From a virus, in IMG/VR virus record IMGVR_UViG_3300009527_000009, positions 1 through 40,754 of that record: a DNA stretch of 40,754 nucleotides; one strand, 5' to 3'. Made by a program: the position numbers and the translations under genes. Below the pieces are notes generated by a model. That model ran no database searches and had not been told where the DNA came from. It was given only the letters and a program-made list of their open reading frames with translations. Of this stretch, positions 22,749 through 40,754 are shown piece after piece (position 1 is the stretch's first letter; each line of letters begins with the position of its first letter).

Positions 22749-23261
22749 CTACGTGATCAACTTATTGACTAGCTCGCAGTCGTGAAACTGACGGGGGTCT
22801 TCATCCTCTAACGTGCGGAGTTTTGCGTTACATACTCTGCAGGTGTAGAGAAACCCGTCAGAGTCGGCTCCCTCAAATACGAAGCCTATCCAACCTGTAG
22901 GCTTGACCCTCCCCTTGGGGAAGCTGTACAGCGGGGCATACTCCGGATTGATCGAATTGACCAGCTCTTCGTGACGCCGGATGGCCTCCGCTACTGCGGG
23001 GCCGTGATCGTCCAGTCCCGCCGCTTTGTTGAGCTTCCTCTGATACCGGTCATTTCGCTCCTTGATCTGGGCGATGTACTTCTCCAGGAAGTGGTGGGCC
23101 TTCTCCAAGTCCTCCAGCCCGTTCTTCTTCCAGGCCCGCTCGACGTACTTGGTGATCTGAGCCTGCATGTAGTCGAGTCCTAGGCGCTGTACGCGATCCC
23201 AGTGCTGCTCCCCGCCGTTGTGATAATGCGTACCTGCTACCTGACGATCATTTGGATCCAC
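22749..23261 (-). CDS. DUF3310-domain protein with C-terminal Cys/His cluster
   Basis: A 170-residue protein. Residues about 8-62 match the DUF3310 pattern (GTHYH, HWD, then QITKYVERAWKKNGLEDLEKA), a small domain common in phages and usually linked to nucleotide metabolism or replication, of unknown biochemistry. The C-terminus adds CRVC plus a later HDC, which could bind zinc. It is the last gene of the minus operon; its TAG stop abuts the TAG of the plus operon with no spacer. The start overlaps the HD-domain gene by 14 bases. Confidence 0.75.
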   Translation of the reverse strand: MDPNDRQVAGTHYHNGGEQHWDRVQRLGLDYMQAQITKYVERAWKKNGLEDLEKAHHFLEKYIAQIKERNDRYQRKLNKAAGLDDHGPAVAEAIRRHEELVNSINPEYAPLYSFPKGRVKPTGWIGFVFEGADSDGFLYTCRVCNAKLRTLEDEDPRQFHDCELVNKLIT

Positions 23262-23769
23262 GATTTCCTCCTGTGAAGTAAGCGAACAACTCGATAGCTG
23301 CCTCGTTATCCCTGAGCTCGTTCTCCAGCAACTTGGTACAGTACCGCAGCCCGTTCTCGTAGATGGGGATAAAGCCCTGATTGCCGGACAATACCTCCAT
23401 CTTAGCCTTATACATGAGAGACATCATGTCGGCAAACTTGAGGACGGGGGCCAGCTCAAGGGGCAGATCGAAGTCTGCCCCAGCCGCCTCGGCAATCTCC
23501 GCCTCCGCTGCGTAGAGATTACCTGAGAGCGCCGGGAAGTCCCACTTGGCGGTCGCCGGTATGTCCCCCGTAATGGCCTCAGCGATGTCGTGGTAGAGCG
23601 CCGCACGTACGAGGGCCATTGGGGGCGACTCGTTGTACATCGCGAAAATTATCGCCAGAACCGAGGCTGTATGGTGACCTACTGTCTCCGTAGTAACCAC
23701 CACGGGGACCGTATGGAAGCGCCGTACAGCGAAGCCGGCGTGGGCTAGTTCAAGTAGCTTGTGATTCAT
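23248..23769 (-). CDS. HD-domain 5'-deoxynucleotidase-like phosphohydrolase
   Basis: The 173-residue protein has the YfbR-like layout: R16-R17-F18, H33, the HD pair H60-D61 in ALYHDIAEAITGD, E64, D69 and a distal D114 in KFADMM. YfbR-type enzymes dephosphorylate deoxynucleoside 5'-monophosphates; related phage proteins act on specific dNTPs or dNMPs. Overlap with the thymidylate-synthase-like gene (ATGA type) suggests it removes the nucleotide competing with the phage's modified base, such as dTMP. That substrate is inference. Confidence 0.85.
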   Translation of the reverse strand: MNHKLLELAHAGFAVRRFHTVPVVVTTETVGHHTASVLAIIFAMYNESPPMALVRAALYHDIAEAITGDIPATAKWDFPALSGNLYAAEAEIAEAAGADFDLPLELAPVLKFADMMSLMYKAKMEVLSGNQGFIPIYENGLRYCTKLLENELRDNEAAIELFAYFTGGNRGSK

Positions 23770-24731
23770 TTCACTCTCCGTTCAAGCCAGCGAAGGCAGG
23801 CAGTAGCCCAGTCGTCATCGTGTATATTATGCGCCCAATGTGACGCTAGGGGCAGGTCGCCCTCCTTGTAAGCGTCCCACGCCGCGAGCATGGGGACGGC
23901 GTTGTCGCGAAGAATGCGGCACTGCCAGTTACCGTCTGGATCCATATCCTCCACGAAGTCCAATGCCTCCTCCCAGTAGAGGTTGTTGGGAGAGAAAGGA
24001 TGGCGCCGGTAGGAGGGATTGAGTTGATACCAGTTGTCCGGTGCCTCCTGATACTTGTCCTCCCCTCCCCAGCCCTCGTACACGTGTAGGTTGTTCGTGA
24101 ACTGGTATAGCGACCCCACTCTTGCCTCTACTGCGCGGGCGACGTACTCATGCAGGGCCGACATATGGACGATATTCGCCCCCAGCATACCCCAGACCAT
24201 GTCATTCGACCGATTGAGTACGGTCATATTGAGCGACCCGGACACGATGCGGAAGTACAGCTGGGTATTGCAAGGCAAATCCTTCCCATCCCGCTCCAGG
24301 TCGAGGTGTGGATCCCACATGCTGATTACGGCCCGACGAGTGGTGGGGTCCTTCTTCAGCATATAGATGATCGCGTCGATCTGGTCGATCTCAAAGGCGT
24401 AGCGCCAGCGATACCCGTAGGCACCGTGGAGGGTCACCCCATCGTCGGAGTACTGTCGAATGTTCGCGGCGAAATGGGCGGGGAAATTGACGTTCTCCGA
24501 CCCAGCAAGCATCCAGATCGCCTCCATATAGTGGAAGAACGGATTGGCGTCACGCTTGGCGTCGAACAGTACGCGCCGGTACGGGGCCGCATGGGTAACG
24601 ATCACTGGCTCCTGTATGACTTGAGCCCTACCGTTGCGCGTATCCTCCCACACTGAGCAGGAGTCCTTCATCCTCTGCATGTGGGTATACGCCACGTTGA
24701 CGTCGTCAAACATCAAGTTGATCGGTCTCAC
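23766..24731 (-). CDS. Thymidylate synthase-fold enzyme, probable dUMP hydroxymethylase
   Basis: A 321-residue ThyA-family protein. Catalytic Cys154 lies in LPCNTQLYF, the phosphate Arg/Ser in LNRSND (174-177), general-base E70 in YMEAIWMLAG, and the folate/nucleotide motif YQFTNNLHVY follows. Asn186 (GANIVH) is the position that selects uracil over cytosine; dCMP hydroxymethylases carry Asp there. The segment equivalent to E. coli TS W80-W83 (about residues 88-100) has no Trp, as in enzymes that let water attack the methylene intermediate to make 5-hydroxymethyl-dUMP. With the kinase and transferase-like genes nearby, hydroxymethylase is favoured over simple thymidylate synthase. Confidence 0.8.
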   Translation of the reverse strand: MRPINLMFDDVNVAYTHMQRMKDSCSVWEDTRNGRAQVIQEPVIVTHAAPYRRVLFDAKRDANPFFHYMEAIWMLAGSENVNFPAHFAANIRQYSDDGVTLHGAYGYRWRYAFEIDQIDAIIYMLKKDPTTRRAVISMWDPHLDLERDGKDLPCNTQLYFRIVSGSLNMTVLNRSNDMVWGMLGANIVHMSALHEYVARAVEARVGSLYQFTNNLHVYEGWGGEDKYQEAPDNWYQLNPSYRRHPFSPNNLYWEEALDFVEDMDPDGNWQCRILRDNAVPMLAAWDAYKEGDLPLASHWAHNIHDDDWATACLRWLERRVK

Positions 24732-24982
24732 TTAACCTCCCAGAGTTGCTTGAAGATACGGGGCGTCAGGACCTGTACGGAGTACATCTGCGAAGTACCT
24801 TGGCGCGACGTTACGGCCAAAGTCTGACCACGCTCGCTGTCGTAGATCGTGACAGCCTTGCCCTCTGAAAGACTGAGATCAATTGCCCGGCGTACCGCTG
24901 ACCGCAGCTTCTTGTAACGATAATACTGGCTGACGGGCAGGGCTCCCCCATTGAGGAGGGTGATGCTCTTCTTGCCGCTCAT
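24728..24982 (-). CDS. Hypothetical 84-residue protein
   Basis: ATG 24982 has a good AGGAG eight bases upstream on the minus strand, and the stop overlaps the TS-like gene, so it heads a four-gene nucleotide-metabolism block. The product is basic in the centre (YYRYKKLRSAVRRAID) and beta-rich at the C-terminus (AVTIYDSERGQTLAV). Function unknown. Confidence 0.65.
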   Translation of the reverse strand: MSGKKSITLLNGGALPVSQYYRYKKLRSAVRRAIDLSLSEGKAVTIYDSERGQTLAVTSRQGTSQMYSVQVLTPRIFKQLWEVK

Positions 24983-25014
24983 AAGTGTAACTCCTGATTA
25001 GAATTTAACAACCG

Positions 25015-25086
25015 CTACGGGCGATTTAAAAAGCCCGCCCGGTACTCTACCCTAGGGGCGACCCGTAGAATCGCCCTAGCAGGCTT
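25015..25086. promoter_or_regulatory. Structured intergenic regulatory element with plus-oriented promoter-like motif
   Basis: This interval separates the two halves of the modification block. On the plus strand TACTCT (25043-25048), 17 bases, TAGAAT (25066-25071) is followed by CGCCCTAGCAGGCTTA; nearly the same string lies on the minus strand at 33328-33279. Inverted repeats overlap it: GGGCGA/TCGCCC (25056-25061 with 25071-25076) and CTACGGG/CCCGTAG (25015-25021 with 25062-25068). On the minus strand a GGGCTTTTT tract could end upstream transcripts. Whether it is a promoter, attenuator or both is unresolved. Confidence 0.45.
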
Positions 25087-25096
25087 AAAATCGGGC

Positions 25097-25927
25097 CTAT
25101 TTCTTGTCTCCCGCCCGCCCCGGATAGCTCGACCGGGGCTTACCCTGACCGAGCTTGACTCGCATGTACTTATCAAGCTCGCAGAGGCAATTCTGAACGT
25201 CCTGGAGGCAGAGCTCCAGGTCCAACTCCTTCTTGATTACCCGCATCTCCCTTAGCCCCTGAGCCTGACTTATAGGTGTGCCGATCTTTCTCCCATAGAC
25301 GCGATTGATACCCCGCATAGAGCCTGGGCCTACCGGGGCCCAATCCCACCAGTCGTCGGCGCTCGACAGGTGACGGGTCTGCTTGAGGTCGGCTATGACC
25401 TGACCGGCGATGAATGGTCCCACGCAGGGGTACTTCGCCTCCATGATCGTCTCCCAGCTCTTCTGAAGGCTGGTCGGGTCGAGGATGGGGGGACAAGAGA
25501 AGTAACTGGCTGAGTTACCGATCACCCAACGACTCTTGGGCACGCCGGTCGGTCCTGCGGTGATCATGTACGCCCCCGTCCAGGCCTTCTCCCCACGGTC
25601 TACGATCTGCTGTAGAATCTGCTCCGCATAAGGGGCGTCCCAAGGATCGGGGAAGCCAATAGCCTCCAGGGTCATGGGCCAGTTGATCGTACGCCCGAGT
25701 ATTATGGCAGCGACGAAATTGGGGCTATCCCAATGCTTCTCGTTACGCCAGTTCTCAGCGAACCAGCGGGTGACGAAGTCATCCTCCCGCCTCACGTTAC
25801 AGAACTTGTACTGTTGGAAGATGATATCGTCGGTCCAGGGCTTCTTCCATCCAGACTCCTTCTTGACCCGAATCAAGTCCCGTTCCTTGATCCAGTAGTC
25901 CATAGTGCGGAGAACGTTATCGTCCAT
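25097..25927 (-). CDS. HMUDK_hel / aGPT-pyrophosphorylase-like helical protein (DNA base hypermodification)
   Basis: The 276-residue product matches a family described in phages with hypermodified thymine and named in domain databases as the helical domain of 5-hmdU DNA kinase (formerly alpha-glutamyl/putrescinyl-thymine pyrophosphorylase-like). Diagnostic features are YWIKERDLIRVKKESG, P30-W31-T32-D33, and YKFCNVRRED (40-49), then a VGPFIAGQVIADL helix-hairpin-helix-like element near residue 175, as in DNA-glycosylase folds. It likely acts on 5-phosphomethyl-uracil in DNA or cooperates with the kinase. The start overlaps the Cys-rich gene by 11 bases. Confidence 0.8.
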   Translation of the reverse strand: MDDNVLRTMDYWIKERDLIRVKKESGWKKPWTDDIIFQQYKFCNVRREDDFVTRWFAENWRNEKHWDSPNFVAAIILGRTINWPMTLEAIGFPDPWDAPYAEQILQQIVDRGEKAWTGAYMITAGPTGVPKSRWVIGNSASYFSCPPILDPTSLQKSWETIMEAKYPCVGPFIAGQVIADLKQTRHLSSADDWWDWAPVGPGSMRGINRVYGRKIGTPISQAQGLREMRVIKKELDLELCLQDVQNCLCELDKYMRVKLGQGKPRSSYPGRAGDKK

Positions 25928-26105
25928 CTTTCTTCTCCCACTTGAGTCCTTCGGGGCCGCAGAGGTTCCCAGCTTCTCGAAGCATATAGGCCTGACGTTC
26001 TGGTTGGTCGTCCACCAGACTACGATTTAGCACGTGGTAGCACTGTACCCTACCAGCCCAGTTACGGGCGCTATGCTTGCATTCGGAACAGAGTTTACGG
26101 TCCAT
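25917..26105 (-). CDS. Cys-rich mini-protein (putative zinc-binding) inside the modification block
   Basis: A 62-residue protein with C6-x2-C9, C22 and C49, plus H11 and H24, resembling a minimal zinc-binding fold. It overlaps the kinase stop upstream and the HMUDK_hel-like start downstream by 11 bases each, so it is co-translated with both. A DNA-binding or adaptor role for the modification enzymes is plausible but inferred only from context. Confidence 0.65.
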   Translation of the reverse strand: MDRKLCSECKHSARNWAGRVQCYHVLNRSLVDDQPERQAYMLREAGNLCGPEGLKWEKKDGR

Positions 26106-26649
26106 ATAGCCCCACTACGAAGTTGGTTGCGTTGAGGTGGGGAACCGTCACCGTCTTGCGCTTGAACTCAAAGTCGAGTCGGTGGCGCAGGCGTTCGATC
26201 TTCTTGACGCGATTACGGGTATTGGTCTCATCGAATACCTTGACGTTCCCCGCGTCCAGTCGGCGTTGCTTGATCCGGTCGATACAGATGGATATGGGGG
26301 TATCAAGGAAGGCGAACAGGTGATCGTCGCCATACTTCTCCGATGCCTTACCGAGCCTGCCGTAATACTCTGAGCAAAGCAGCCCTTCGTAGAACACGTG
26401 ACCCGCTCTGGCGTACTCCTCAATCAACCAGATCTGGTCGTCTACGCTGCTGATCGCATCCATGCCCCCACATTGAGTCTTGTAGGGACCGATGATGAAT
26501 AGTGGCTCCATCACGTTGGGGAGATGCGTCTCGTAGGCGACAATCTTCCCCCGTATGCTGCAGGTCGTTACGGGGAGAGCTGTCTTGATGATATCGTGGG
26601 CAACCGTAGATTTGCCCGAACCGCTAGTACCGTGTAGCTTGACGATCAT
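26095..26649 (-). CDS. P-loop kinase, probable 5-hydroxymethyluridine DNA kinase
   Basis: The 184-residue product begins with Walker A GTSGSGKST (residues 7-15). A central stretch (KTQCGGMDAISSVDD, then HVFYEGLLCSEYYGR) is the signature I associate with the 5-hmdU DNA kinases of thymidine-hypermodifying phages such as ViI- and M6-type viruses. A C-terminal Arg-rich LID-like segment (RIKQRRLDAG) follows. These enzymes phosphorylate the hydroxymethyl group of 5-hmU in DNA, making it a leaving group for amination. It overlaps the SNF2 helicase stop as ATGA. Confidence 0.85.
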   Translation of the reverse strand: MIVKLHGTSGSGKSTVAHDIIKTALPVTTCSIRGKIVAYETHLPNVMEPLFIIGPYKTQCGGMDAISSVDDQIWLIEEYARAGHVFYEGLLCSEYYGRLGKASEKYGDDHLFAFLDTPISICIDRIKQRRLDAGNVKVFDETNTRNRVKKIERLRHRLDFEFKRKTVTVPHLNATNFVVGLYGP

Positions 26650-28001
26650 GCTGCCCTCCTAAGTGCGGTGAATAGTCTTTCTTGAGTAGCGTCCTTCTCC
26701 AGTAGTATCTGCGCCACGTCGATGTCTCTGGTCTTAGTGGCGAGGATACGATGGAGAAAGACCCGATTGCTAGGCTGACCCTGTCTCCAAATACGCTTAA
26801 TCAGCTGTTGGTACAACTCTAGGTCCCAGGTGAGCCCGTAGAAGCAGATGTGGTAGCAGGACTCTTGCAGATTGAGCCCGTGTCCGGCTGAGGCGGGGTG
26901 GGCGAGGGCGACGGGGATGATACCCGCGTTGAAGTCGTCCACCAGCTTGTCGAGCTTGGCTCCGGTGACCCCTGTAAAGCTAGGTGCATTCGGGAATACG
27001 CGCCTGATTCGATCCAGGTCATGTTGAAACTCGTAGCCGACAAGTAGGGGTGTTCCTTGAAGTTGATCAACCAGATCGACCAGCGCCTGCGTTTTGATAT
27101 CGTGAATGTGATGCCCGAAATGCTCGGAATCATACAGCCCTCCGTTGGCGATCTGTCTGAGCTTGCCCCCGACTACGGCTGCGTTGGGGGCCATAACTAC
27201 CGCGTCCCCAAGGATAGCGATGAACTCGTCGTCAAGTTGCTTGTACAGAGCCATCGTCTTAGCGTCCAGATCGACGAAGATGTCGTCGGGGATCAGCTCC
27301 GGCATGTCGAGGTGGTCCTCGGCAGACATACGCATCACGGACGGCTTGATCCGCTCGTAGATGCGCTCATCCGCCCCCAGCTGGAGATAGTACCCGTAAT
27401 CATCATACGGCTTCTGGTAGAAGTACATCGCCCGGTAGTGAGTGATATACTTCCCCAAGGATGCGCCGCGGTCCATGACGAAGCACTGACCGAATAGGTC
27501 CATGAGCCCGTTAGGGGCAGGAGAGCCGGTCAGTATGACCCGTCTCTTGAACGCCCCTAAATGCGGCTTGATCAATTTGAACCGGGCTGTTGACGGGTCC
27601 TTGAACTTGGTGGACTCGTCAACGACCAGCATATCCACGCCGGTCTTGCGGATACCGTCGTTCTCCAGGAACCACTTGACCGCTTCCGGGTTCAGGAGAT
27701 AGATGTCGGACGGCTTCTTCATACGATCCAGCTTCTCGTCGCCGTGGAGGATCGTATAAGTCAGGTCCGACGTATGGGTCCACTTCCTGATCTCGTCCGG
27801 CCAGACCTTATACATCGGTCGGATGGGGGCGATAACGAGCACGCGACTCACGGCCTGGCGCTTAATCAGCACTTTGATAGCCGTCAGTGAGACCGATGTC
27901 TTCCCCATCCCTGGGTCGAGGAAGATACCGCAGTTAGCGTGCTCCATTACGAACTTGACGCCCTCCACTTGGTAGGGGTGCGGCTCCCAGACCTTGCTCA
28001 T
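26646..28001 (-). CDS. SNF2-type superfamily 2 helicase/translocase
   Basis: A 451-residue SF2 ATPase. Motif I is DPGMGKT (29-35), motif II is DEST (128-131), motif III is LTGSPAPN, and the second RecA domain carries SAGHGLNLQ and the motif VI region QLIKRIWRQGQ. The length is short for SNF2, without accessory domains. Phage SNF2-like proteins work in replication or recombination. Here it is locked by ATGA overlaps between a transferase-like gene and the DNA kinase, so it may expose or scan DNA for base modification; that link is inference. Confidence 0.9.
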   Translation of the reverse strand: MSKVWEPHPYQVEGVKFVMEHANCGIFLDPGMGKTSVSLTAIKVLIKRQAVSRVLVIAPIRPMYKVWPDEIRKWTHTSDLTYTILHGDEKLDRMKKPSDIYLLNPEAVKWFLENDGIRKTGVDMLVVDESTKFKDPSTARFKLIKPHLGAFKRRVILTGSPAPNGLMDLFGQCFVMDRGASLGKYITHYRAMYFYQKPYDDYGYYLQLGADERIYERIKPSVMRMSAEDHLDMPELIPDDIFVDLDAKTMALYKQLDDEFIAILGDAVVMAPNAAVVGGKLRQIANGGLYDSEHFGHHIHDIKTQALVDLVDQLQGTPLLVGYEFQHDLDRIRRVFPNAPSFTGVTGAKLDKLVDDFNAGIIPVALAHPASAGHGLNLQESCYHICFYGLTWDLELYQQLIKRIWRQGQPSNRVFLHRILATKTRDIDVAQILLEKDATQERLFTALRRAA

Positions 28002-28795
28002 TCCAGCTCCAGGATGAAGAGGTCTTGCGGTACGTTAGGCGGCAACCACTCAGACATAGCCGCTGCCTTGTCCCCGTAGCCCTTCAACGTGTACCTCTTG
28101 GCGATGATGTCGGAACCTAGCCAGTTGGTACCGTACTTGGCCGTCTTCCAATCGCACAAGGCCGTCTCGACCTCAGCGGGGCCAACGGGGCGATCATAAT
28201 ACGGAGGTGCTAGTAGCCCTAGCTGATTGATACGGAAGCACAACGCCTTGAATCCGTAGTCAACGGTATCGGTGGGGTACAGTAGCTTGACCGCCTTAGC
28301 CGGCTGAGTGGGGAGAAACTTGTGTAAATGATGCATACCGACTACAGTATGCCCTAGGCAACGGTCCATGTAGTCGGCTATCTTCAGGACGAACATGTTA
28401 CCGAACCCGTACAAGTCCCGGTTCGCCAGTTTGATCAGATCGGTATACACCGACGGTAGACGCTTGAAGAAGTCCTCAGGACGGGGAGAGAAGTCAATCA
28501 TGGATTGAAGGGTCAGGACGCCGCCGTTGCCTCGGAAGTGACGACGCATGTTCCCGCGAGAGGCCGTGGGGTAGATATGCTTCAAGTGACCCCAGAAGGC
28601 TGAGCCCTCTATGTCCGCAGCTCTAGCTGCTACGCCCATGTCGTAGTAGGCAAGCATACCTACGCAGAACCGAGCGGCCCAGTCGTACCCCCACTCCTTA
28701 CGGGCGCGGGCTACTGCGAAGTAGACGGGGTCATTGTCGCCAATGGCGAAGTCAACGCGGGCGTAGTCCTCAAATGTCCGGACATATCTTGACAA
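27998..28795 (-). CDS. Helical protein resembling aGPT-pyrophosphorylase clade 3, candidate amino acid:DNA transferase
   Basis: From the TTG at 28795 the product is 265 residues. The pattern GDNDPVYFAVARARKEWG, then CVGMLAYYDMGVAARAAD and a Trp-containing FWGHL element resembles the all-helical, glycosylase-like family proposed to install amines or amino acids at phosphorylated 5-hmU. The frame stays open to 28906, and an ATG inside it (28873) has AGGAG upstream, but those starts overlap the nuclease gene by over 100 bases. Start choice and function are both uncertain. It overlaps the helicase start by ATGA. Confidence 0.6.
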   Translation of the reverse strand: MSRYVRTFEDYARVDFAIGDNDPVYFAVARARKEWGYDWAARFCVGMLAYYDMGVAARAADIEGSAFWGHLKHIYPTASRGNMRRHFRGNGGVLTLQSMIDFSPRPEDFFKRLPSVYTDLIKLANRDLYGFGNMFVLKIADYMDRCLGHTVVGMHHLHKFLPTQPAKAVKLLYPTDTVDYGFKALCFRINQLGLLAPPYYDRPVGPAEVETALCDWKTAKYGTNWLGSDIIAKRYTLKGYGDKAAAMSEWLPPNVPQDLFILELE

Positions 28796-29063
28796 GCTCG
28801 TCGATTGCGGCTCGCCCGTCGCGGAAGTTATCAACCACGACAACGGCAAATCCTTGTGATCTGATGAGACCATGTACATGCTCCTGTATAAGTGTGGGCT
28901 CTTCACCCGGTCGTTTTACTTCAATGAATAGAATGCCCCCGTTCTTCAGGAACAGTCTATCCGGCCAACCGCGCCGGTACTTCACGTTCAACTTCAGTAC
29001 GAGCACGCCCTGATCCTTGGCGTACTCCGTGAGATTCTCCTCTATGCTACGTTCTAGTATCAT
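28770..29063 (-). CDS. VRR-NUC domain nuclease
   Basis: A 97-residue stand-alone VRR-NUC domain: N-terminal helix, then R31-G-W-P-D35 and E48-V-K50 forming the PD-(D/E)xK-type active site, and Q60. Phage enzymes of this type cleave branched DNA and are thought to resolve recombination or packaging intermediates. The start overlaps the PD-(D/E)xK exonuclease gene upstream. The stop region overlaps the start of the next gene by up to 26 bases. Confidence 0.88.
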   Translation of the reverse strand: MILERSIEENLTEYAKDQGVLVLKLNVKYRRGWPDRLFLKNGGILFIEVKRPGEEPTLIQEHVHGLIRSQGFAVVVVDNFRDGRAAIDELVKICPDI

Positions 29064-29719
29064 CGTCCTACCTTACACGGTCCACCGTACTTACCGTGGT
29101 AACCGCAGAAGCGACAGGCGTTGGTACTCGGCGTGGCGGGGAATATGGTCTCCTCCTCAGCGTTACCGATACGCCCATCCATCAGCATACGAATAGGCTT
29201 CAGCCGCTCGACGGGGACAGTCTTAGGTGGCGTCACGATACCCTGATCGACGTAGATCAGTCTGGTCGTAATCTCTTTGACCTCGGGGTACTCCGCAGCA
29301 GCGAGGGCCGTGTAGACCTCCATCTGCTTCGGGTGGCTGTCGTAAATCTGCCCCGTCTTGAAGTCCTCGATGTACAGCGTATCCTCGTGGACGTAGTGTA
29401 CGTCTATGATCCCACGGAAGTAGGCGTCAGGAGCCTTGTAGTCGACCGGCTCCCACTTATCGTTGACGGCCATCTTCATTTCCGGGATGGCGCGTCGAGC
29501 CTTCAGACCCATCACGTGGGCCGATACCTTCTGGTAAGACGGAGGGCAGAGGAACGTCTTGTTCAGAAGGTAGTTCTCACCTTCCAGGTGAATCTTTGTC
29601 CCCCGTTCAGCAGCCGGCGACTGCGGCTTGGACTCGGGTAGGTTCTCCACGTACGAGTACCAGTACGACTTGGGACAGTCCTCGTAGCAATTTAATCTTG
29701 AGTACGACCAAGGTCTCAT
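29060..29719 (-). CDS. PD-(D/E)xK exonuclease, RecB/Cas4-like with Cys cluster
   Basis: The 219-residue protein carries a RecB-family nuclease core: H44 (RGTKIH), D106, E118-D119 and K121 in IEDFKTGQ, then Q132-x3-Y136 (QMEVY). Cys11 or Cys15 plus C202, C205 and C215 match the four-cysteine iron-sulphur arrangement of Cas4/AddB-type enzymes. It probably resects DNA ends in phage recombination-replication. There is no CRISPR context. ATGA-type overlaps on both sides. Confidence 0.88.
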   Translation of the reverse strand: MRPWSYSRLNCYEDCPKSYWYSYVENLPESKPQSPAAERGTKIHLEGENYLLNKTFLCPPSYQKVSAHVMGLKARRAIPEMKMAVNDKWEPVDYKAPDAYFRGIIDVHYVHEDTLYIEDFKTGQIYDSHPKQMEVYTALAAAEYPEVKEITTRLIYVDQGIVTPPKTVPVERLKPIRMLMDGRIGNAEEETIFPATPSTNACRFCGYHGKYGGPCKVGR

Positions 29720-40517: not shown

Positions 40518-40668
40518 GGGGAGCGGGGGAACGGGGCCAGGAACGTCGTACGAACGTTCGAGGCCGGGGCGTAGGATCGGGGGGAACGGGGGAACGGAGT
40601 TTAGTCCGTATCGGAGAAGGGCGCTAGATTTACCCCCCCCCCCTTTCCGTTCCCGCCGTTCCCGATCC
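40518..40668. other. G-run cluster and inverted repeat in the divergence hub
   Basis: The plus strand carries six runs of four to six G between 40518 and 40592, able to form G-quadruplexes. GGATC-G6-AAC-G5-AACGG (40574-40597) is a near-perfect inverted partner of CCGTTCCCGCCGTTCCCGATCC (40647-40668), with about 49 bases between. AACGT/ACGTT adds a small hairpin near 40541-40557. No convincing ORF occupies 40492-40754. Origin, packaging site or transcription insulator are possible. Confidence 0.5.
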
Positions 40669-40754
40669 GTACCCCCCGCCCCCAAAGACCCTCCCACCCG
40701 AAGGGTCTTAGGTTAGCACCTACCAACCGGCCCGGCCGGCAAGTTATTAAGAAC
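40628..40754. repeat. Right copy of near-identical terminal direct repeat
   Basis: This is the 127-base right-hand counterpart of bases 1-126, with an extra C in the C-run and about eleven substitutions. Several cluster at 40669-40700, mostly turning G of the left copy into C. Removing it gives a unit length of about 40,627 bases. The AAGACCCT/AGGGTCTT hairpin is preserved at 40685-40709. Confidence 0.85.

Follow-up and report, generated by a model that had tools for sequence, protein, structure and literature searches.

Delftia phage PhiW-14 replaces about half of the T in its DNA with alpha-putrescinylthymine, and the putrescine is added after replication to phosphorylated (pyrophosphoryl) 5-hydroxymethyl-2'-deoxyuridine (5-hmdU) in DNA (PMC5977210; PMC6449724). 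Rhodoferax phage P26218, which has been cultured, has a short tail and a genome of 36.3 kb (PMC4657236). Here we describe a compact gene block (minus strand, 22749-28906) in IMG/VR record IMGVR_UViG_3300009527_000009, a whole virus record of 40,754 bases that is referred to below as the window. Its five core proteins, all encoded on that one strand, are a candidate dUMP hydroxymethylase of the thymidylate synthase (TS) fold, an HD 5'-deoxynucleotidase, a candidate P-loop 5-hmdU DNA kinase, the helical protein HMUDK_hel and an amino acid:DNA transferase (ADDT). We propose, with a probability of roughly two in three, that the product of the block is a 5-aminomethyl-type thymine with direct substitution, in that an amine or amino acid is attached and the chemistry stops there. 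An earlier reading of the window's letters (the original prediction) had suggested such a directly attached group, and the suggestion gains comparative support here, since ADDTs outside the glycinyltransferase clade are never tailored in our sample.

ADDT lineage and tailoring genes

Pathway details for the M6 base 5-NedU and the PaMx11 base 5-NmdU are reportedly given by Lee et al. in 2018 and 2022 and by Wen et al. in 2024, the last of these being the glycinyltransferase structure paper. We called a locus tailored when it carries M6-type pyridoxal phosphate (PLP) or radical S-adenosylmethionine (SAM) genes, or a flavin adenine dinucleotide (FAD) lyase. On a tree of 96 ADDT sequences, with 80 loci kept as those nearest the query, all 37 tailored loci fall in one clade of 42 rows (support 100/99), together with M6 gp51 and PaMx11 gp46. 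None of the 54 rows outside this glycinyl clade is tailored, PhiW-14 and the window included. Tailoring takes 6 changes on the tree versus 29.6 by shuffling, and its association with the clade has a Fisher p of 1.6e-21, a value not corrected for kinship. Five rows inside the clade are untailored, and three of these (L049, L070 and L165 in our numbering of loci) have less than 0.8 kb of upstream sequence. To our knowledge, PhiW-14 is the only member of the untailored ADDT lineages with a known base.

A held-out test placed eight phages that had no earlier use. CN2 and Bhz59, with PLP and radical-SAM genes, and Lucjan, Epa43 and Simon, with the FAD lyase, fall inside the clade. Placed outside it, beside PhiW-14, is Acinetobacter phage SH-Ab 15599, whose 143-kb genome has none of the three tailoring types. 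These held-out phages agree with the clade-tailoring rule in 6/6 cases, a count from which the actinophages Wooper and Kozie, a distant outgroup, are left out.

Searches of the whole records of the window, PhiW-14, P26218 and ctfPj964 (a 38.5-kb podophage genome) found no radical SAM protein, no PALP-type PLP enzyme and no FAD lyase of the PaMx11 gp47 type. Acetyltransferase profiles had no match among the window proteins scanned, and the window has no acetyltransferase of the PaMx11 gp48 type. The original prediction had seen neither a PLP decarboxylase nor a radical-SAM gene, which is borne out on the whole record, and had seen no acetyltransferase gene, which agrees with the proteins scanned; the FAD lyase, which it did not name, is likewise absent from the whole record. 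In two contigs of about 40 kb (L041 and L048) an FAD lyase adjoins the ADDT, so small genomes of podophage size can also hold tailored systems.

Identity of the ADDT and the group it may attach

The ADDT belongs to the aGPT-PPlase2 family. Its gene (27998-28906) is longer than the span of 27998-28795 first assigned to it: the frame opens with GTG at 28906 (302 amino acids), and an ATG at 28873 (291 amino acids) has AGGAG upstream. Relatives align from residue 1 or from residues 20-23, and the ATG is the likelier start. The protein scores over the curated cut-off of PF18724 (28.0 bits versus 26.2; E 2.2e-6). By sequence only two solved structures, PDB 25qc and 8z2m, are convincing relatives. 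An AlphaFold2 model (predicted local distance difference test, pLDDT, 94) fits 8z2n over its whole length (Foldseek E 5e-13, template modelling (TM) score 0.74, root-mean-square deviation 2.3), an entry whose PDB title is 5-phosphomethyl-2'-deoxyuridine glycinyltransferase gp46 of phage PaMx11. The window ADDT keeps all fully invariant residues (R117, R121, R122, G169, K175, D178, E245, E247 and C251), but has Met at two other conserved positions (see below).

The best phage match of the window ADDT is PhiW-14 gp109 (E 2e-28, 32% identity), other phages among the matches listed giving 6e-17 or weaker. In the best tree the window's 20-row group also joins PhiW-14 (98/87), the PhiW-14 gene set is shared, and tailoring genes are absent in both. 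The ADDT might then use putrescine or another polyamine and yield the PhiW-14 base, alpha-putrescinylthymine. We consider this narrower version of the proposal possible but unlikely. The grouping is not robust, however: an approximately unbiased (AU) test did not reject the alternative in which the window group joins the glycinyl clade (p 0.578), and we therefore do not claim the window ADDT as a PhiW-14-type putrescine enzyme. Identity to the PhiW-14 protein is only 32%, and a motif glutamate that PhiW-14 retains is methionine in the window (E120M, see below).

A second narrower version is that glycine is attached and that plain N-alpha-glycinylthymidine is the final base. Those ADDTs that have a solved structure and a named function are all glycinyltransferases, their core residues are common to the window, and kinship with their clade is compatible with the AU test. 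The window ADDT nevertheless lies outside the 42 well-supported rows and lacks residues that distinguish them. PaMx11 K248 is Lys in 42/42 ADDTs of the glycinyl clade and in 0/54 others, the window equivalent being Asp252, and it is a plausible hypothesis that K248 contacts the glycine carboxylate. PaMx11 W146 is fixed in the clade and is Tyr in all others except the window (Met171), and Y47 and W48 of the clade are also missing. We consider glycine doubtful as the attached group.

Several points weigh against a directly attached final base of any kind. For most loci the absence of tailoring genes was judged on flanks of at most 10 kb, with whole records used only where named above. The AU result has the same tendency, as it leaves kinship with PhiW-14 in particular insecure. 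Host enzymes, or phage proteins belonging to no known family, could tailor the adduct. In the ADDT itself, Glu120 of the RGxERRH motif is Glu in 92/96 sequences and position 171 is Tyr or Trp in all other ADDTs of the tree; both are Met in the window, whose ADDT activity may thus be changed or lost. If the enzyme were inactive, the final base would be 5-hmdU or 5-phosphomethyl-dU. The motif Glu is also lost, to Ala or Gly, in the relatives L100, L101-L103 and L106-L107, and this departure is confined to the window's own clade. These relatives retain intact genes, though, and the window ADDT has an unbroken frame with no change at any fully invariant position, so we regard an inactive ADDT as improbable. 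E120M and Y/W171M each require at least two base changes in a gene that is otherwise intact, which makes a changed pocket likelier than sequencing error. With no glycinyl-clade Lys and with its two Met, the window ADDT might attach a group that is new to DNA, and the untailored lineages (54/96 of those sampled) might form a widespread class of thymines with a direct adduct, the nature of which depends on ADDT specificity and nothing else; we put this wider idea forward tentatively, as one that may well prove wrong.

Kinase, HMUDK_hel and nucleotide enzymes

The kinase candidate (26095-26649) reaches 24.7 bits against HMUDK_HMUD1, 2.3 below the Pfam cut-off of 27 (E 1.9e-5), matches phrog_800 (E 1.2e-15) and has an intact Walker A motif, GTSGSGKST. 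It has direct homologues in M6 (gp54) and PhiW-14 (gp37), and P26218 gp15 is homologous as well. These three and PaMx11 gp49 are labelled terminase small subunit in RefSeq, and phrog_800 is labelled head and packaging in PHROGs; both labels on the 5-hmdU DNA kinase family are apparently a propagated error. In one ADDT lineage two P-loop kinase genes stand in tandem ahead of HMUDK_hel (loci L024, L025, L027-L029, L031-L034, L037-L039, L043, L127 and L145), an arrangement that may have to do with the pyrophosphoryl intermediate of PhiW-14.

HMUDK_hel (25097-25927; aGPT-PPlase1 family) lies far over the cut-off of PF18723 (130.2 bits versus 25; E 1.2e-37) and has homologues in M6 gp55 and PhiW-14 gp72. 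By profile search the kinase, the helical protein and the transferase all fall in 5-hmdU hypermodification families, as had been predicted, and none was placed outside them. The AlphaFold2 model of HMUDK_hel (pLDDT 95) has no significant match among solved structures. The closest are helix-hairpin-helix (HhH) 8-oxoguanine glycosylases (probability 0.95, E 0.2, TM 0.41-0.51), a weak resemblance that would fit a base-flipping protein. One could also suppose that HMUDK_hel is a second transferase and that the phage makes two modified bases. Iyer et al. in 2013 reportedly named the HMUDK_hel and ADDT families both as pyrophosphorylases, and HMUDK_hel relatives occur in Salmonella phages where no ADDT was found. 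Yet the HMUDK_hel gene comes after the kinase gene in most loci, and the P26218 lineage has ADDT and kinase without HMUDK_hel, so that a second transferase appears very improbable. HMUDK_hel was not found in this lineage, which holds kinase, ADDT, TS and HD genes, and it is therefore dispensable in some systems. The loci concerned are L003 (P26218), L004, L045, L050, L063-L065, L069, L072, L073, L078, L081, L084 and L089.

The TS-fold protein (23766-24731; PF00303 E 6.8e-23, phrog_5131 E 4e-94) has its best solved match in CMP 5-hydroxymethylase (3.7e-21, versus 7e-12 for the best TS), and homologues in M6 and Pam3. The catalytic Cys and the uracil-type Asn are kept, the TS Trp80/83 is not, and a hydroxymethylase-like IxxYSxDG replaces the TS stretch IWDEW. 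The match to CMP 5-hydroxymethylase, the Cys and Asn and the IxxYSxDG motif make a candidate dUMP hydroxymethylase the better reading of this protein. The YfbR-like HD 5'-deoxynucleotidase (23248-23769; PF12917 E 1.8e-11), whose gene has an equivalent position in M6, PaMx11, Pam3 and P26218, probably lowers dTMP/dTTP pools.

Proposed pathway

What the sequences themselves show is family membership, main active-site residues that are intact, the lack of tailoring genes and the pattern across lineages; we infer every catalytic step from the protein families. The TS-fold enzyme would convert dUMP to 5-hmdUMP. The HD enzyme would cut competing dTMP/dTTP, and 5-hmdU would replace T in DNA at replication. 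The P-loop kinase would then phosphorylate the 5-hydroxymethyl group in DNA, with HMUDK_hel as its probable partner, flipping out or presenting the base. Finally, the ADDT would swap the phosphate for the nitrogen of an amine or amino acid, presumably taken from the host. As with putrescine in PhiW-14, the adduct would be the final base, since the set includes no gene for a PLP enzyme, a radical-SAM protein, an FAD lyase or an acetyltransferase. The benefit may be protection from restriction.

Layout of the block and type of genome

The five core genes had been described as overlapping, and neighbouring genes in the block do mostly share stop/start overlaps of a few bases. The five-protein description is right as far as it goes, and the block further includes a SNF2-type helicase, a 62-amino-acid protein, an 84-amino-acid open reading frame (ORF), a DUF3310 protein and a 114-nt gap. 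The helicase (26646-28001; SNF2-rel_dom E 1.2e-17, phrog_62 E 3.4e-130) was set aside as part of the chemistry: it is of replication type, belongs to no known class of modification enzyme and also adjoins the ADDT in P26218. In P26218 and ctfPj964 a helicase gene precedes the ADDT. The 62-amino-acid protein with Cys pairs (CxxC) is encoded between the kinase and HMUDK_hel genes (25917-26105); it matched no family, and one further homologue only was found. The 84-amino-acid ORF (24728-24982) is kept in close relatives, with nine ORFs among the collected loci. It is set apart from HMUDK_hel by the 114-nt gap (24983-25096), which could mark a boundary between two transcription units. The gap contains inverted repeats, and a search there for a terminator gave folding no stronger than that of shuffles. 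The DUF3310 gene (22749-23261; PF11753 E 1.4e-5) forms a conserved end of the block and comes after the HD gene in most relatives. On the 5' side of the ADDT and on the same strand are its immediate neighbour, a small nuclease of the phrog_93 family (28770-29063), and a PD-(D/E)XK nuclease (29060-29719).

The two ends of the record form an imperfect direct repeat of about 126 nt (1-126 and 40629-40754; about 90% identical, with one insertion or deletion), and the record is therefore probably near complete. Many of the repeat's mismatches have C in the right copy, which suggests low-quality ends. The first 22.7 kb or so carry structural genes on the plus strand; the replication genes that follow are on the minus strand. 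The gene families present include portal, head and DNA-ejection proteins, the terminase shares 38% identity with its counterpart in podophage P26218, and no long-tail genes were found in the window. The podovirus type originally proposed is supported by this gene content. A tRNA search of the window found none, and an Rfam scan matched no family.

Comparison with known systems

The same block is widespread in IMG/VR virus contigs, and the closest relatives (L015-L019, L100-L103 and L106-L107) have the gene order of the window. A single-sequence scan of IMG/VR with the window ADDT gave no relatives, whereas alignment-based scans found them. A scan of bacterial and archaeal genomes with a close-clade ADDT found no relative, and thus no host or prophage clue. 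The rarity of the system was overstated in the original prediction: the cultured podophage P26218 and numerous virus contigs carry the compact block. Podovirus hypermodification genes were reported in 2022, for pelagiphages of the HTVC023P type (PMC9599517). What is already known or public covers the gene families, the logic of the pathway and examples of compact podophages.

The interest of the locus is moderate, and comes from the comparative ADDT-tailoring rule and from a lineage that is unstudied. If the proposal holds, no way of putting a bulky and probably charged thymine into phage DNA would be shorter than these five enzymes in about 6 kb, a route feasible for very small phages. The ADDT tree yields a rule by which sequence predicts whether trimming of the attached group follows, and it singles out lineages for reading ADDT adducts, one of which includes P26218.

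Among described systems, the M6 cassette (gp51-gp59) resembles the window in having ADDT, kinase, HMUDK_hel, TS, HD and DUF3310 genes in one strand block, but it adds a PLP enzyme (gp52) and a radical SAM protein (gp53), and its ADDT is within the glycinyl clade. The PaMx11 cassette (gp46-gp52) shares ADDT (gp46; PDB 8z2m and 8z2n), kinase, HMUDK_hel, TS and HD genes, but includes an FAD-dependent enzyme (gp47) and an acetyltransferase (gp48). The HTVC023P-type pelagiphages are likewise podoviruses with TS and aG/PT-PPlase1 (the HMUDK_hel family), while no ADDT is mentioned in the part of their description consulted (PMC9599517). P26218 and ctfPj964 have helicase, ADDT, kinase, TS and HD genes in near-identical order and no tailoring genes; unlike the window they are without HMUDK_hel, and their ADDTs, about 26% identical, are another lineage. 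PhiW-14 shares the kinase (gp37), HMUDK_hel (gp72) and ADDT (gp109) families and has no tailoring genes in its genome, but it is a 157-kb myovirus with the three genes scattered, whereas in the window, about 41 kb long, they sit together in a single compact block.

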